IMG/VR virus record: IMGVR_UViG_3300029267_003703
Span: 1 to 64,000 of that record
Length of the DNA: 64,000 nucleotides
Origin: a virus
Strand: one strand, 5' to 3'
Shown here: positions 6,332 through 52,111 of the stretch, in pieces
Layout of the letters: each line of letters opens with the position of its first letter
Position numbering within the stretch: position 1 is the first letter of the stretch
Made by a program: the position numbers and the translations under genes
The notes under the pieces: generated by a model
What the model was told of the DNA's origin: nothing
What the model saw: the letters and a program-made list of their open reading frames with translations, nothing else
Databases searched by the model: none

Positions 6332-6712
6332 ATGATGTACGCGGGCATGAAAGAAGAGCTGCTGGAGATCACCAAGGCCGCGGCCTGCAGGGCGAGGATG
6401 ACCGTCGCGCAGACGCGTCAAGGTCGACGTCCAATGCGGGTGGAGACGCTGCTCAAGAAGGACAAGGAAGGCTCCTTGTTCAAAGAGTCAGGCAGCTACG
6501 CTCTTGAGGCCGGCGGGCCGCAGGGCACTTCTACTCCCTTCCCCGATGAGGGGCTGAAGGGGACCCCCATCGCCCTTCTTCGTGGGAAGCCTCGCAAAGG
6601 GGACGTGCCCAGCGTCAAGGACGAGATGGGATCCGTCGATCGAATCGACGGCCGAGGCAGCGCGTACACTCAGGTGTCCCCCAGCACACAGGTAGACGGG
6701 GTCGAGATATGA
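6332..6712 (+). CDS. Small protein with MKEELLEI-type leader
   Basis: A 126-residue protein of unknown function. Its N-terminus contains M-K-E-E-L-L-E-I-T-K-A-A, a short amphipathic leader that recurs on several other small proteins here (6709, inside 7448, 50794, 51959). The remainder is hydrophilic, rich in Gly, Lys, Pro and Ser, and likely extended. Several ATG codons cluster at the start (6332, 6335, 6347) with no strong Shine-Dalgarno, so the exact start is uncertain. It shares ATGA with the next gene. A virion-packaged or assembly role is inferred from the leader and neighbours. Confidence 0.7.
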   Translation: MMYAGMKEELLEITKAAACRARMTVAQTRQGRRPMRVETLLKKDKEGSLFKESGSYALEAGGPQGTSTPFPDEGLKGTPIALLRGKPRKGDVPSVKDEMGSVDRIDGRGSAYTQVSPSTQVDGVEI

Positions 6713-7467
6713 AGATCGCAGAAGCGCTGCTGAAGATTGCGAGCGACGATCGCCCGCCGACCGTGGAAGAGACCCGCGACGCCATACGCCGGCTCAAGCG
6801 CATCAACGAGTCGGACCCGTCGCTGGGCCACAAGCTCCGGTACGCCGGGCTCGGTGCCGTGGCCGCGCCCGTGATGGCGGCTATCACCGGGGCCATCGCC
6901 GGCAAGCCCTCGTTGTCCGGGCCGCTGAAGCAGAAGGCGCGGCAGCTCGCCGCCCAGTCCGTTGGCGGAGCGGCCATGTTCGGCGCCATTCCTATCCTGC
7001 GAGGTCAGATCGACCGGCAGATGGAGCGGAGCAAGATCGAAGACTTCCTCGAAGGGCACAAGAAGACGTACGTCACACCGAAGGGGAACCTGCGGCGGCT
7101 GTCGGGCGGGCGTGCGGACCTGTTCCGCCGCTTGGCGGCGAAGTACCCCGACGCCATCGAACCGGAGAAGGTGGCCAAGGTCCTGACCATGAAGGGGCGC
7201 AAGCGGATCAAGGAAAAGAACTTCGCGATCCCCTCCGAGAGCGGCCCCGGCGGCACTGGCCGATACCCAATCCACGACGTCACGCACGCCAAGGCGGCCA
7301 TTCAGATGGTCGGCAAGCACGGAACTCCTGAGGAGAAGGCCAAGGTGTACAACGCCGTGGCCAAGAAGTACCCCGGGCTGGCGACCAGATCATCTGTCAT
7401 AGACAAGGCTGCCAGTGCCATGACCGCTGAACTGTTGGAGATCTGCCATGCCTGCCTGGGTTCATGA
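6709..7467 (+). CDS. DUF6582-like virion-type protein with LLKIA leader and hydrophobic segments
   Basis: A 252-residue protein that starts M-K-I-A-E-A-L-L-K-I-A, the leader type of this cluster. Residues 44-62 and 83-98 are hydrophobic, Ala/Gly-rich, possibly membrane-active. Residues 180-230 carry the pattern F-A-I-P ... R-Y-P-I-H-D ... H-A-x-x-A-I ... G-T-P-E-E-K-x-K-V-x-x-A-V ... Y-P, which matches the DUF6582 family common in phage prohead and structural loci. The last 15 residues repeat an E-L-L-E-I motif. The next gene overlaps by 20 bases. Membrane activity is inferred only from composition. Confidence 0.75.
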   Translation: MKIAEALLKIASDDRPPTVEETRDAIRRLKRINESDPSLGHKLRYAGLGAVAAPVMAAITGAIAGKPSLSGPLKQKARQLAAQSVGGAAMFGAIPILRGQIDRQMERSKIEDFLEGHKKTYVTPKGNLRRLSGGRADLFRRLAAKYPDAIEPEKVAKVLTMKGRKRIKEKNFAIPSESGPGGTGRYPIHDVTHAKAAIQMVGKHGTPEEKAKVYNAVAKKYPGLATRSSVIDKAASAMTAELLEICHACLGS

Positions 7468-8563
7468 TCGCGCTCAGCACCTGTTGGCCAAGAACCCGAA
7501 CATGCCCAAGAGCATGGCGTTCGCCTTGGCGACGGATCAAGGGCACGCTACTGGGAAGACCCCCAAGAAGTACGGCACTCTGGAGGGGCGCAAGCGGGCC
7601 AAGCAGAAGTACGACAAGCCCCGCAAGGAGTATGTGAAGACTCCGAACCCCGGCAACTTGGAGACGCCGAAACTCGAGAGTAGGGAGAAGACCGCCATGT
7701 ACGACTTCATGAAACAGGAACTGCTCGAGATCACACAGGGCAGTCAGGAGAAGACCGCGTCGGGGTGCGTCATCGACTTCGACAACGACGGCAACCGAAT
7801 GGGCGTCGAGTGGCACGAGGATGCGCTGGCCCGCATCATGGGTTTGCCTCGAACGTCCGGCTCCATCATGGGCAAGACTGGAGCTGCTCGTTGGGTGAAG
7901 GAGCTAGGCGACCCCGCCGTTCTGAGGGGCATGAAGGCCCGGTTGAAGTCAGTCATTGGTCGTACGCATGAGGGGAGCAACTACGGCGACTATGTCAAAG
8001 AGCAGGGCACTAAGACGTTGGATATGATGGCGAGTAGGGGCAAGGGCGGTACAGGTCCTGCTGGCGGCAGCTTGACCCGCGGTTTGCGCAAGCAGCTGAA
8101 TCCGGGGGCTGTTGCGTCCAACAAGGGGTCCATCGATGACCTGGTCAACGCCAATGCGTCTGCTCAACAGGTGTCAAAGAGAAAACACTGGATGCAGCCC
8201 AAAGAGTTCCGTAATCAGAAGACCTCTTCAGTCAAGCTGTCAGCCATGAAGGAGGCGTTCAAGCGCTCCTACTATCACGGCACAGGGCCGTGGGGGCCGA
8301 CGTTCATGAAGACCGACAAGATGCCGGACCCGTCCCGGGTCGCACAGTCGCAGATGCCCGCCCAGCAGGCCATCGAGAACATGAGCGGCAAGGTGGCCGG
8401 GGCCGCGATCACCCCGGCGGCGCGCCTGGCAACTTCCATGCAGGTGGGTCGCCCGCCGGCGGCGCTGTCCAAGGTCGGGCCAAGCGTGGCGCAAGTTGGT
8501 AAGATCAAGGGGCCTGGTTCTGGTACGGCGCTGCCCGGCGCCAAGGAAGGAGGCTCGGTATGA
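7448..8563 (+). CDS. Three-part small-domain protein with internal leader motifs
   Basis: A 371-residue protein built of three parts. Residues 1-45 form a small conserved phage/host domain (M-P-A-W-V-H-D-R-A ... N-P-x-M-P-K-S-x-A-F-A-x-A-T). A second part begins at Met 84 (ATG 7697) with M-K-Q-E-L-L-E-I, flanked on both sides by E-K-T-A, and a third at Met 267 (ATG 8246) with M-K-E-A-F-K. Both internal Mets resemble the N-termini of independent genes, and 7697 has GGGAGAAG ahead of it. The gene may be a fusion, or internal starts may make shorter products. The SD GGAG before ATG 7448 is well spaced. Confidence 0.75.
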   Translation: MPAWVHDRAQHLLAKNPNMPKSMAFALATDQGHATGKTPKKYGTLEGRKRAKQKYDKPRKEYVKTPNPGNLETPKLESREKTAMYDFMKQELLEITQGSQEKTASGCVIDFDNDGNRMGVEWHEDALARIMGLPRTSGSIMGKTGAARWVKELGDPAVLRGMKARLKSVIGRTHEGSNYGDYVKEQGTKTLDMMASRGKGGTGPAGGSLTRGLRKQLNPGAVASNKGSIDDLVNANASAQQVSKRKHWMQPKEFRNQKTSSVKLSAMKEAFKRSYYHGTGPWGPTFMKTDKMPDPSRVAQSQMPAQQAIENMSGKVAGAAITPAARLATSMQVGRPPAALSKVGPSVAQVGKIKGPGSGTALPGAKEGGSV

Positions 8564-8709
8564 AGGGCAAGGTAGAGCAAGCTCCGATCAACAAGATGGC
8601 CGCGCTCAACGCGTGGCGAGAGACGGCTGACCGACTCCAGAAGGAGGCGATGAAGCTCAAGCCGGACACGCTTCGGCAGAAGGTGGCGGCGCTCAAGATC
8701 GGCCAGTGA
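8560..8709 (+). CDS. 49-residue basic helical protein
   Basis: A short gene whose ATG overlaps the preceding TGA (ATGA), with AAGGAAGGAGG about seven bases upstream. The 49-residue product is basic and predicted helical, ending in R-Q-K-V-A-A-L-K-I. It contains an I-N-K-M-A-A-L-N-A-W segment and ends with a KI motif loosely like the leader seen on its neighbours. It is too small to classify. Strong SD, operon position and GC-biased third codon positions support it as a real gene. Confidence 0.6.
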   Translation: MKGKVEQAPINKMAALNAWRETADRLQKEAMKLKPDTLRQKVAALKIGQ

Positions 8710-8737: not shown

Positions 8738-9607
8738 ATGCCCCGAAGAAAGAAGAAAGAGAAAGCAGCAATGGAAGACGGCGACCCCAGGGAAGAGGAG
8801 AAGGCGGCACAGATGTTCGCCCAGGGCCTCATGGGCGCTTCTTCTACACCCCCACCACCCCAAGTCGACCCAGTGCAGCAGGTAGCTGCCGACCAGAAGA
8901 AGCTCAACAGGAGGCAGCAGGACCTGGAGCTTTGGCACAAGTGGGATCAGGGCGGGCGAAAGCCCGAAGACCTTGCGCCGCTGCTTCAGCACTTCGAGGG
9001 GATGAAGCAACAACAGCTTCGCACCAAGAAGTTCGGGCCGCAGGTGCAGCCAGATGCGCTCGCGGCCGAAGTGGACAAGCGGATGATTCAGCGTCTCGAG
9101 ACGTTCAACCCGCGGTACGGCACCGCGCTGTCCACGCATGTGTTTCCCGGCATCCGCTCTTCTAGCCGTTGGGGTAACATTCACGCCAACACCCGCGCGC
9201 TCCCGGAAGCTGACATGCAACAGATCAGCCCTCTGCAGGCCGCGCGCGACGAGCTGCATGAGCAGCTCGGCCGGCCACCCACCCACGAGGAGATCGCGGC
9301 CCACGCGAAGATGCCCCTCAAGCGCGTGAACAAGATCCTCACCTCCGCCGATCAACGAGACGTCCTTCAGAGCTCGTTCGAGGCGGACCCCACGCCGCGG
9401 GCCCAGCCCCGGGACGTGGAGATCCGAGACCCCTTCTACCGAACCCTTGAGGGCCCCGAGAGGGAGGTCTTCGCTCACTGGTACGGCCTCGACGGCCGCC
9501 CCCAGATTCGCAGCGGAAAGCAGCTCGCCAAGAAGCTCGGCAAGAGCGAAAGCGAGATCTCACACATGCGGACTCGTATCTTCAACAAGTACAAGTCCTA
9601 CCTCTGA
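8738..9607 (+). CDS. Divergent sigma-70-like protein in the structural module
   Basis: A 289-residue protein with a lysine-rich N-terminus. Residues 60-135 resemble sigma region 2 in order and spacing, with E-T-F-N-P-R-Y-G-T-A-L-S-T-H-V at 127-141 aligning with the F-D-P-x-x-G-x-x-F-S-T-Y motif of region 2. A region 3-like segment follows: L-H-E-Q-L-G-R-P-P-T-H-E-E-I-A-A-H-A. The last 60 residues look like region 4: a helix-turn-helix with G-K-Q-L-A-K-K-L-G-K-S-E-S-E-I-S, then R-x-R-I-F. Similar sigma-like proteins occur in structural loci of other phages. It could redirect host RNA polymerase after injection, or be a virion protein that has lost that activity. Which one is unknown. Confidence 0.8.
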   Translation: MPRRKKKEKAAMEDGDPREEEKAAQMFAQGLMGASSTPPPPQVDPVQQVAADQKKLNRRQQDLELWHKWDQGGRKPEDLAPLLQHFEGMKQQQLRTKKFGPQVQPDALAAEVDKRMIQRLETFNPRYGTALSTHVFPGIRSSSRWGNIHANTRALPEADMQQISPLQAARDELHEQLGRPPTHEEIAAHAKMPLKRVNKILTSADQRDVLQSSFEADPTPRAQPRDVEIRDPFYRTLEGPEREVFAHWYGLDGRPQIRSGKQLAKKLGKSESEISHMRTRIFNKYKSYL

Positions 9608-41153: not shown

Positions 41154-44100
41154 ATGGCGTGCACGCCTCCAGGCTGGAGTACCCAGGCATGGGGCTGGAC
41201 CCCTTGGGGTAGTCTTCCTGGGGGCAACATCCCGTTCCACGAGCCCTTCACGACGTACTGTGTGGGGCCGTGCGGCGAGATGGAGGACATCCTGGCGTAC
41301 CTGCCGGTGTCCATCTCTGGCGACTTCGGAACGAAGCTACCTGATCAAGACCTGTGCATGTGGAGCATTGCCGGCCCTTCCGGCGTGGCGATCCCCACGG
41401 TGCTCACGATCGAGCACGTTCCGGACCCGAACTCTCCGGCGCCGGCGGGCACGCCCCCAAGCTGGACGCTCGAGCTCACGGCCGAGCTCGTCTCCCTCCC
41501 CACGGAAGTGGAGAACAGCGTTGAGCACGTTTGGTTTGGTGTGTGGGACGAGGACGGCAACTCGGTCGGCATCTACGTGTCGCAGACGCAGATTGGATGG
41601 GGGCCACGCGTGGGCGAGCAGCCCATCGGCATTCTGACCCCCGCGCAGCTCAACGGGTTCCACCTTGAGGAAGGTGTTTTCTACACCTTCCGCATCTCGG
41701 TCAACGACACGACGCAGGCCGTCTTCATCTACATCACGAAGACGGACGACCTTCTACAGCCCGGAGGCACCCACGCTTTGCGGGCCATCGTGCCGCTGCC
41801 AGGGCAGGTCGGCAGCCACACGGAAGCGACGACCGTCAGCGTGCGCGGCAGCGCCGGGCACGAGGTGCACATCTGCCTCGACTCCATCTGTCTGGCTCCC
41901 GCGTTCATGGCCCCGAACATGCCGCCGATTGCGGACGCCGGCGAGGAGCAGGAGATCAAGCTCTGCACCCTCGGCGAGCTCGACGGCACCGGCAGCTACG
42001 ACCCTGAAGGCTCCCCGCTCATCTACTACTGGCGGCTGACGGACGGCCCCGTGGCCAGCCAGTACGTGTTCGAGGGTCTGGACGGAAGCACCCAGCCACT
42101 TGCTATCCCTACCGGCTTCACGAACATCCTGAGCACCACGCTCATGGACGACGAGTTCCTGAGCAAGGGGCTGCCGATTGGGATCGGTTCAGGGGACGTG
42201 CTTCTCATCGAGGGCATCGCCTACGACATCATCGCCGTCAACGCGACGGAGATCACCATCAGCGGCGAGTTCCTCGAGGACAACTGGAGCGCCAAGTACT
42301 TCAAGGTGCTCAAGCAGTCCATCCTCGACGACCCCTCGAGCCCGACTCCGCACTTCTACCCGGACGCCCCGGGCTTCTACCGTTTCGAGCTCATGGTCAG
42401 CGACGGCGGCATCTTCTCGGAGCCGGACGTGACGGTGGTCGCCGTCCGCGAGTCCCCCATGCCCCGGGGCTGCACGCCGAACGTGGGGTTCATCTGGACC
42501 AACCTGTCCGACTTCTGGTCACTGGTAGAAGAAAGAGAAGTGATCGAGACCGTGTGGAGCGCGATCACGCAGATCGCCGCTGGTCAGCTGCTCACTTTGT
42601 GGCAGGTGGACTACAACAAGAGCCTGCGAGACATCCAGCGCTCGATGGTTCGCAAGTGGCTCTACTACGACCTGCTCATTCAGGAGCCCTTCTACGACCT
42701 GACCGAAGTCAAGAAGATGGACAACACGACCGGCTTCCTGACGGGCGCCGGCGGCGTAGTGCAGCCTCCTCCGTTGGGCGGTGTGACCTACGACTTGGAC
42801 GCGGACTACAGCGGCGAGGACATCCAAGAGCACGACTGGCTCATCCTCGAGGGCGTGGGCTACCGAATCAAGAAGACCTCGGTCGTCGGCGGCGTGACGC
42901 GTCTGACTCTGTACGATGCCATTTACAACAACCCGCCCATCCCTTCTCTGCCGGACTGGACCATCGCACGGCCGACCACGAGCTCCCAGATCGACTTCTG
43001 GAGCGGGCTGGTGGTCGCCGGCGACAATGCCTTCGTCGAGGTGCTGAACAACGAGACGGGTGAGGTGTTGTACCTGCAGGTCGACGTGCTCGGTGCGGCT
43101 CCGGAGAAGCCGGGCGGCGTCGCCTTGGACCCCACGGAGTACCTGCCGTACACCGACAACGACCTGTACACGCTGCACTTCATCGCGGTCTTCCGGCGGA
43201 AGTACACGCCGATCAACGACCGCATCCTGGACGTGCCGTACCTGCAGGTCATCCTCAAGGACCCGCCCGAAGACCAGGTACTTCAGCGCAACGTCGACTT
43301 CTTCATCGACATGTTCCGTGACCGTAAGTGCCTGCGCTTCGACAGCGTGTTCGTGCACGAGGAGCCCGGGTCAACGGTCCCCATCATCATCGTCGACGAC
43401 CCGACCCCGCCGGCGAGGTTGTGGGCTGAGTTCACGTACATCGACAACCGCCAGGTCATCGAGTCGAACTTCGGCGTCGCTGCGGACTTCACCCTCGACG
43501 ACCTCGAGAAGATCCAAGCGGCCTCCCCCGGAGACTTGGACTATCTGTCGGCAGTTCAAGGGCTCTGGTACGTCTTCTTCCACGCGCCCACGCCGTACAA
43601 TCTGCGCATCGGAACGCAGATTCTTCTTGGTCTGCCGTTCTCGGAAGAAGATGGGCTGATAGAGGAGATCAGGCCCAACTTCTCCGCGGCCGGCACGCGC
43701 GTCTTGATTCGGGACAAGGAGGAGACGGGCATCGTCCGATCCTACACCTACCAAGATGGGCTGGACTTGGAGATCAACCCGGAGACGGGGGTCGAGTACG
43801 TGGAGGGCGACTCGATCCAGAAGTTCGCTCCGCTGTCCACGGGCGTGGTCGTCTATGACTACCTGAACAACCCGCAGTGGATGTCGGTCCTCATCAGTCA
43901 GGGCGTGTTTCGGGAGATCGAGAAGTTCCACAAGTTCTTCGTACGCATCGAGAGCCCTGCCTTCTCTTTGGCCGGCGCCGTGGCGGCGCGCAAGCTGGCG
44001 CTGGCGGTCAAGCCCATGCGTACCTATCCCCTTACTGCGGTTCGGTACGAGGTCGGGCCCGACGACATCGACATTACGGACATCATGGCCCTGACGGTCA

Positions 44101-50793: not shown

Positions 50794-51447
50794 ATGCAGC
50801 CCGCCGTCTATGAATCGTGCGCCCGATCGCTGCTGAAGATTGCGGCCACGAACCAGCAGATGCACGAAGCCATCTCGAAGATGGCGCCCAAGGGCGTGCA
50901 CGTGATGACGGACCCGACGAGGGGCCGAGTGCGAGAGAACTGGGGAGGCGGGGTGTTCGGGCCTCACCACCTACTCGAGGAGGCGCTGGGCCCCAGCCTC
51001 AAGAAGAGGCTGCCCAAGGGCAAGATCGTCATGACCTCTTCGGGCAGAGACCCCACTACGCTGGCGCACGAGATGGGCCACGCCCAGTTCGACGAGTCGC
51101 TCATCGGGCGGACTGTGCAGAACCCGTACGTGCGGGGGCTGAGCTCCCGTCTTGCCCCCATTGTGGGGGCCGGGGTCGGGTACGCTGCCGGTGCGGCTAC
51201 GCGCAGTCCTCTCGCGGGTGCCGCCGCCGGCGCAGCGGTGTCGGGCATCGGGCATCTGCCGACCCTTTTGAGTGAGGGCATGGCCAGCATGAAGGCGGTG
51301 GACAACCTGCGCGCCGCCGGCGCAAGCGACGCCCAGGTGGCGGCAGCCAAGCGCGACATGGGCAGGTGGCTCCTCACCTACATGAAGGACCCTGCCTTGC
51401 ACATGGCCGCAGGCGTGATTGCTGGTGGGGCCGGCGGTGCCGCATGA
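50794..51447 (+). CDS. Zincin-like (HEMGH) protein with LLKIA leader and hydrophobic segments
   Basis: A 217-residue protein. The N-terminus carries S-L-L-K-I-A, the leader shared with the virion-type cluster at 6-8 kb. H-E-M-G-H at residues 92-96, preceded by P-T-T-L-A, is a complete HExxH zinc-metallopeptidase motif. Two Gly/Ala-rich hydrophobic segments (about residues 123-155 and 203-217) could be membrane-associated. A third zinc ligand is not obvious, so activity is unproven. It shares ATGA with the deaminase gene and probably starts a short transcript from its own promoter. Confidence 0.75.
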   Translation: MQPAVYESCARSLLKIAATNQQMHEAISKMAPKGVHVMTDPTRGRVRENWGGGVFGPHHLLEEALGPSLKKRLPKGKIVMTSSGRDPTTLAHEMGHAQFDESLIGRTVQNPYVRGLSSRLAPIVGAGVGYAAGAATRSPLAGAAAGAAVSGIGHLPTLLSEGMASMKAVDNLRAAGASDAQVAAAKRDMGRWLLTYMKDPALHMAAGVIAGGAGGAA

Positions 51448-51962
51448 GTTGGGACGGTGACGAAGTGGACACGAAGGTAGAAGGTAAGGGGCGGCCCGAG
51501 AAGTCCCCTCATCGCCTGGCGGTGACCCGCCCATCTTGGGACGAGTACTTCCTGAACATCGCCGAGGCCGTGTCAGCCCGTAGCCACGACGCGGAGACCA
51601 AGGTCGGCTGTGTCATCGTTGACGTCGAACATCGAGTCTTGGCTACGGGGTACAACGGCTACCCGCCCGGGTACAGCGACGAGCTGCTCCCGAACATCCG
51701 ACCGTACAAGTACAAGTACATGGTGCACGCGGAGATGAACGCCATTGCGAGCTCGCGCGCGGACCTGCGCGGCGGCACCTTGTACTGCACCAGCACACCG
51801 TGCAACGACTGCGCGAAGGCAATCGTTACGGCCGGCATCAAGCGTGTCGTGTGCGCCAAAGCGTACTCGATGCACGACGGGGTCGCAGCAGAGGCCCTCG
51901 ATCTTCTTCGGATGGGCGGGGTCGAGGCTGTGGTAGGCCTGCCCGTGGAGTCTGTCGGATGA
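51444..51962 (+). CDS. Deoxycytidylate deaminase (dCMP deaminase)
   Basis: A 172-residue zinc enzyme that turns dCMP into dUMP. H-A-E-M-N-A-I at residues 95-101 supplies the first zinc ligand and the catalytic Glu, and P-C-N-D-C at 119-123 the two Cys ligands. The G-Y-N-G-Y-P-P-G segment (residues 69-76) is typical of the family. ATG 51444 overlaps the previous stop; the longer upstream frame is a shadow. Together with the kinase and nucleotidase genes it completes a deoxynucleotide salvage set, although no thymidylate synthase is in the window. Confidence 0.9.
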   Translation: MSWDGDEVDTKVEGKGRPEKSPHRLAVTRPSWDEYFLNIAEAVSARSHDAETKVGCVIVDVEHRVLATGYNGYPPGYSDELLPNIRPYKYKYMVHAEMNAIASSRADLRGGTLYCTSTPCNDCAKAIVTAGIKRVVCAKAYSMHDGVAAEALDLLRMGGVEAVVGLPVESVG

Positions 51963-52111
51963 GCTACAGTGCGATGAAAGAGGGGCTGCTCAAGATCGCG
52001 GTTGATCCTGCGGCAGTTGGGGCCTTCGGACTAGTAACGCGATGCACGGGCACAGCCTGCCTGGGAACTTGCGCCCACCAAAGTTGCCCCACGCAGGCAA
52101 GGAGGCGTTGA
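51959..52111 (+). CDS. MKEGLLKIA-leader ORF, probable 5' part of a frameshifted gene
   Basis: A 50-codon ORF starting ATG 51959 (overlaps the deaminase stop). It encodes M-S-Y-S-A-M-K-E-G-L-L-K-I-A, the recurring leader, and then leaves a plausible reading for a Cys/Arg-rich tail. The next ORF (52042, frame -1) reads as the natural continuation after a hydrophobic Ala/Gly linker. The sequence therefore looks like one gene split by a frameshift between about 52006 and 52108. Confidence 0.5.
   Translation: MSYSAMKEGLLKIAVDPAAVGAFGLVTRCTGTACLGTCAHQSCPTQARRR

Follow-up and report, generated by a model that had tools for sequence, protein, structure and literature searches.

A recurrent N-terminal leader ending in K-x-A is a candidate capsid-targeting signal in a lineage of large tailed phages

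In an uncultured phage and its relatives, otherwise unrelated proteins share a short leader peptide that closes with K-x-A, and in the head-assembly proteins of the relatives no residue pair is enriched more strongly than this one. The leader probably acts as a modular N-terminal capsid-targeting signal, at whose end the phage-encoded prohead protease cuts. A preliminary description of this DNA had proposed a packaging or processing signal. Sequence comparison supports processing of the leader at K-x-A well, this being the top pair in head proteins with a prohead-protease homolog encoded nearby. Packaging is supported indirectly, by adjoining virion genes, 23 unrelated protein bodies, synonymous variation within the leader and the presence of InPase, HExxH and sigma-factor bodies, types that phages are believed to inject.

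Leader peptides and their genes in the window

The window is a stretch of 64,000 nucleotides, bases 1-64000 of an 85,447-base IMG/VR record, the remainder of which was analysed as well. Genes for a baseplate-J-like protein, for DNA polymerase A and for a fused beta-beta' RNA polymerase place the record in a tailed phage lineage, for which a tail-sheath match in one relative suggests a contractile tail. The RNA polymerase (77516-83926 of the record; L002 from 14016) is a 2136-aa protein that unites Rpb2 and Rpb1 domains in a single chain.

The five peptides first noticed—MMYAGMKEELLEITKAA, MKIAEALLKIAS, the internal MYDFMKQELLEITQGSQEKTA, MQPAVYESCARSLLKIAA and MSYSAMKEGLLKIAV—are all present at the positions named for them, and the proteins that carry them are indeed otherwise unrelated. 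Searching the whole record for LL[KE]I[AT] returned five occurrences in proteins, four of them within the first 40 residues; shuffling the record's proteins with their composition preserved gave averages of 0.137 and 0.017, respectively. The peptides had also been called amphipathic, a property that does not set them apart: helical moments of the leaders range from 0.18 to 0.39, and the 90th percentile of random N-termini is 0.39. Overlooked at that stage were the K-x-A closing the motif, which is its most informative part, and a sixth, better example, MRGFIEEMEKQALTG, encoded beyond the window (gene 72482-73513 of the record). The window genes that carry or adjoin leaders are the following.

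6332..6712, plus strand: CDS of 126 aa; MMYAGMKEELLEITKAA (6332-6382) as N-terminal leader, with cleavage predicted to follow K-A-A
6709..7467, plus strand: CDS of 252 aa; leader MKIAEALLKIA at 6709-6741 (MKIAEALLKIAS); C-terminal part is the mobile phage domain phrog_16160
7448..8563, plus strand: CDS of 371 aa; N-terminal MPAW..H domain, then the internal leader MYDFMKQELLEITQGSQEKTA (7697-7759)
8560..8709, plus strand: CDS of 49 aa; K-x-A occurs three times (NKMA, QKEA, QKVA)
8738..9607, plus strand: sigma-factor-like CDS in the leader cassette (Sigma70_r3, E 3.8e-9; phrog_351 sigma factor)
50794..51447, plus strand: CDS of 217 aa; leader MQPAVYESCARSLLKIA (50794-50844; peptide MQPAVYESCARSLLKIAA) and a zincin-like HEMGH motif
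51959..52111, plus strand: 50-aa ORF; leader MSYSAMKEGLLKIA (51959-52000; peptide MSYSAMKEGLLKIAV), stop/start codon overlaps couple it to the genes on either side

Two relatives have regions (G008, 77-73 kb; G007, 21-25 kb) syntenic with the cassette of 6332, 6709 and 7448 that follows the baseplate gene. Homologs of the first product in four relatives retain the leader and/or K-x-A ahead of the conserved body RxGRRxMxVxTLLKKxKEG, and a leader-to-leader alignment (LLEITKAAACRAR-MTV / FLDELQKIAASKGR-LSI / FFDELCKIAAAKSQ-FSV) places the K and the A of K-x-A in shared columns. Not every homolog of the window's proteins keeps the leader: the one at G013 98274 has only VGLVKNA, and that at G018 131081 was called without a leader, possibly through a start error. 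The G007 homolog of the second product carries MALSQSLAKIAQ at the aligned place (ALSQSLAKIAQ); an IMG/VR scan with this protein found no relative. Its phrog_16160 match (PHROG search, E 1.9e-6) covers residues 135-231 (KNFAIP...YPIHDxxHAKxAL...KYPG), a domain that in the relatives resides on different host proteins.

The internal leader of the third product is preceded by REKTA (ending at 7696) and followed by QEKTA (ending at 7759); the copy itself reads LEITQGS and lacks a K of its own, though flanked by EKTA. In the G011 homolog this position is taken by KKTASAIMFDGFADELSKIA, and in both proteins K-T-A precedes and K-x-A follows the internal leader, as expected of a two-module precursor. 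For the 49-aa protein encoded next, no homolog was found among the relatives. Homologs of the sigma-like protein bear leaders in G011 (FADELDKEA; L126:5529-6302) and in G007 (FLDHKQKVA). A leader on a protein with sigma-70 region 3, together with the phage-encoded fused RNA polymerase, suggests a virion-delivered sigma factor.

HE[LIM]GH homologs of the 50794 protein occur in the relatives, with leaders in two genomes; a protein at G013 126395 combines the leader MRDEFYKIA with HELGH. The family had no match in Pfam or NCBIfam. The 51959 ORF overlaps its neighbours through ATGA and TTGA. A frameshift was considered as the cause of its shortness and rejected, as the overlapping stop/start codons suffice. 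No homolog was found among the relatives, which makes the reality of this ORF less sure.

Leaders across the relatives

Using the portal-like gene (73540-75537 of the record) as an IMG/VR query, we recovered 49 relatives and took eight long ones (167-196 kb, from genomes near 190 kb) whole; their genes come from a home-made caller, so that the starts are predictions. The gene immediately upstream of the portal mostly opens with a leader of the AFRDELRKEA or GFLEQLQKEA type, the place occupied by MRGFIEEMEKQALTG in the present record. From the relatives a sharper consensus emerged, F-x-D-E-L-x-K-[IE]-A, lying at about residues 9-17 and starting mostly at residues 8-12. The LL[KE]I[AT] of this virus is a variant that fits it loosely: the window leaders match the strict consensus poorly, and only gene 72482, beyond the window, conforms.

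A position weight matrix trained on the starts of the genes upstream of the portal matched 78 proteins within residues 1-41; the windows further along gave 12, 8, 7 and 4 in turn. In held-out genomes, the strict pattern occurred 18 times in the first 35 residues, compared with 0.39 after shuffling and 0-1 in internal windows. The strong leaders amount to 34 proteins in 23 unrelated body groups. Codons for the fixed Leu and Ala all varied among them, and this synonymous variation argues that selection acts on the leader peptide. A neighbouring gene pair in G011 shares MYDLI[TS]MAAF.DE[LM].K[IL]A, which points to leaders having been copied between genes.

Leader genes lie close to the virion genes, at a median of 1.5 genes from a core late gene versus 9.0 for other genes (p 4e-11). 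Almost all stand beside late virion genes, and they often adjoin baseplate genes. Leaders occur on an InPase domain (Pfam, E 5e-39), on a papain-like protein of the C92 type, on a sigma factor and on a HELGH protein; most leader proteins had no match in PHROGs, Pfam or NCBIfam. Searching cultured phages with the leader peptide by tblastn gave no match, and searches of a library of open-access papers returned no description of a K-x-A leader.

The K-x-A site in head proteins and a candidate protease

The pentapeptides LEKTA and LEKLA, as well as VKTA, recur many times in the head operon of G013. Enrichment of K-x-A was not visible over whole proteomes and appeared only once proteins were grouped by family: 7 of 98 families were strongly enriched (p 1e-6 to 1e-28), all seven of them in the head operon, with the control pairs KA, K..A, A.K, R.A and E.A near or below expectation in most of these. 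Among about 1600 gapped pairs, K-x-A ranked first in the head-assembly proteins of every one of the eight genomes (p 1e-10 to 2e-17), and it was flat in the remaining proteome of each; counts pooled over homologs are non-independent, which per-genome testing reduces but does not remove. Applied blindly to T4 gp67, gp68 and gp22, the same method returned L.E first and I.E second, that is, the known gp21 site (L/I)xE.

Profiling 527 sites gave [LFM]-[EV]-K-[TLV]-A-[SA]-[AV], with information only within about four residues and in agreement with the leader end. The pair also ranks first in two cultured phages that are only distantly related, Salmonella phage Arash and Vibrio phage D69, and a marine clade has K-x-A in homologous head proteins. 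For the virus studied here, whose own protease and most of whose head operon fall outside the sequenced fragment, the case rests on the relatives and on one gene of the record, 70247-71701, with 10 K-x-A against 3.1 expected. Every one of the 10 major capsid protein sequences carries K-x-A a little ahead of its conserved core; the sole PDB match, phage G gp27, is uninformative on cleavage. Taken together, K-x-A is best read as a putative prohead-protease site of new specificity.

A candidate for the enzyme is encoded by a head-operon gene (G013, 42261-43961) homologous to phage G gp19 (hhalign 99.5%, E 2.7e-23). Through gp19 it is related to proteins annotated as head maturation protease or prohead core protease in Erwinia, Pseudomonas and Dickeya phages, and hence shows homology to annotated members of the head-maturation protease family. 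Its His (HHxNKD) and Ser ([VT]SM[GA]) motifs are conserved, as is expected of catalytic residues, and by comparison with T4 gp21 this His and Ser would be catalytic. The catalytic residues of gp21, which we take to be H85 and S140, are both present in its sequence. Aligning the candidate with gp21 by hhalign placed the same region together at a non-significant P of 0.33. PHROGs, Pfam and NCBIfam held no match for the candidate, and comparison with the HSTV-2 protease gave none. AlphaFold models of the full length and of the N-domain were of low confidence (pLDDT 54-60); Foldseek found no significant match between them and a known protease, and prohead proteases in BFVD were matched without significance.

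Two copies of the protease gene (G001, L119:2904-5759; G018, L107:4521-7385) are interrupted close to conserved motifs by intein-like insertions (CFPAGTxVxT), whose positions differ between the two, and a further copy (L159:8678-11485), about 400 residues over-long, may carry a similar one. Phage G gp19 itself (L187:6841-7743) is unannotated in its record and contains LVKTA, VVKIA, LEKVAS and LLKIAS.

Known systems, alternative readings and implications

The leader is best read as functioning like the T4 capsid-targeting sequence (CTS); descent from the latter is not claimed. As in the T4 CTS/gp21 system, a short N-terminal peptide on unrelated cargo ends in a prohead protease site, here a predicted one; scaffold proteins are full of the same site; and the protease is encoded among head genes. 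Two hallmarks of a T4-type leader were found: a short common N-terminal peptide on unrelated proteins (34 proteins, 23 bodies; enrichment in held-out genomes), and an end that matches a motif repeated in scaffold or core proteins (K-x-A first in 8/8 genomes, with agreeing profiles). Homology to the T4 CTS, as judged by similarity together with an (L/I)-x-E end, was not found: the leader is unrelated in sequence and ends in K-x-A, so it is no member of that group by descent. It further differs from T4 in being placed on at least 23 body types, in occurring internally as well, and in that its targeting and cleavage are predictions from sequence. In T4 IPIII, the first ten residues suffice for targeting, and the residues for targeting and for cutting are separable (PMC9026906), a precedent that makes it reasonable to ascribe both roles to the present leader.

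SPN3US gp245 cleaves after A-x-E and favours Ser at P1' (PMC10052503). The proteases gp245 (A-x-E) and phiKZ gp175 (S/A-x-E) resemble the present site in having P3 and P1 fixed and Ser favoured at P1', in the repetition of the motif in propeptides and in belonging to phages that encode a multisubunit RNA polymerase; they differ in P3/P1, which are K/A here. In the consulted parts of PMC5694885 and PMC10052503, neither SPN3US nor phiKZ is credited with one N-terminal leader shared by many cargo proteins, of the kind proposed here. The protease of the present lineage is homologous to the phage G gp19 family, but phage G differs in that K-x-A is weakly enriched in the head genes tested (17 vs 8.9, p 0.01). 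Iyer et al. 2017 predict that InPase and peptidase polyvalent proteins are packaged and injected (PMC5512222). The likeness to those proteins lies in an InPase domain with a leader, an HExxH peptidase-like protein with a leader and genes near virion genes, whereas the proteins here are mostly small, have a single domain and bear a leader of their own, unlike the giant multidomain polypeptides of that study (PMC5512222).

We infer that K-x-A is cut, on the C-terminal side of its A, that proteins reach the prohead by means of the leader and that the cargo is ejected. The leader helix (F-x-D-E-L-x-K-[IE]-A; in this virus LL[KE]I[AT]) would dock a late-made protein onto the assembling prohead core. 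The prohead protease, the phage G gp19 homolog, would then cleave after K-x-A and remove the leader; the same enzyme would shred core and scaffold proteins and trim about 28 residues off the major capsid protein. Freed cargo would remain in the head and leave it with the DNA. Internal copies such as that at 7697 sit between two modules with K-x-A on both sides, as in a small polyprotein.

The K-x-A evidence by itself does not show targeting. The site could be cut and the leader be a mere removable N-terminal extension, with recruitment left to the protein bodies, and K-x-A is indeed found in many contexts without F-x-D-E-L. Cleavage alone, however, needs neither F at -6 nor E at -3, and the upstream F-x-[DE]-E-[LM] is kept on 23 unrelated bodies, whereas scaffold-type K-x-A sites show weak preference there; we consider this reading unlikely. 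Just as unlikely, in our estimate, is an uncut docking helix for assembly of the core or of structures next to the baseplate, in which K-x-A would be a docking surface that recurs through repeated docking helices. A scaffold-like protein of the marine clade itself contains LLEELEKIA, and baseplate genes are often adjacent to leader genes, as such a helix would have it; but the K-x-A profile has no heptad pattern; it spans few residues, is asymmetric and continues beyond the A with a small residue, which is how P3-P1/P1' look in known prohead proteases (PMC10052503). That the enrichment method recovers the T4 cleavage site also speaks against docking. Least probable by a wide measure is chance or a functionless hitch-hiking duplication of 5' gene ends: leaders were copied between two neighbouring G011 genes, yet leader counts far exceed those in shuffled sequences, the peptide is kept despite synonymous codon turnover, and the internal copy is conserved at the corresponding place of the G011 homolog.

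A broader reading of the leader as a capsid-targeting signal, to which we give even chances, is a lineage-wide modular packaging code, with one K-x-A leader grafted onto dozens of unrelated proteins, so that the injected proteome would be readable from genomes. By this code, and with the same evenly balanced confidence, the sigma factor, the pyrophosphatase-like domain and the zincin-like and papain-like (C92) proteins would count as cargo, and the carried sigma factor may work with the fused beta-beta' RNA polymerase that the phage itself encodes. Which proteins travel in the phage head and are the first to be injected is known mostly from a few model phages, since finding them needs virion proteomics. 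Identifying the top gapped pair in head-operon proteins, which recovered the T4 site, may work in other phages. If the proposed role is true, prohead-protease specificity would extend from an acidic P1 (x-E) to K-x-A, and the predicted injected proteins of a whole group of uncultured large phages could be listed from sequence; among them, the leaders on sigma-factor homologs suggest that the genome may arrive together with a phage sigma factor.
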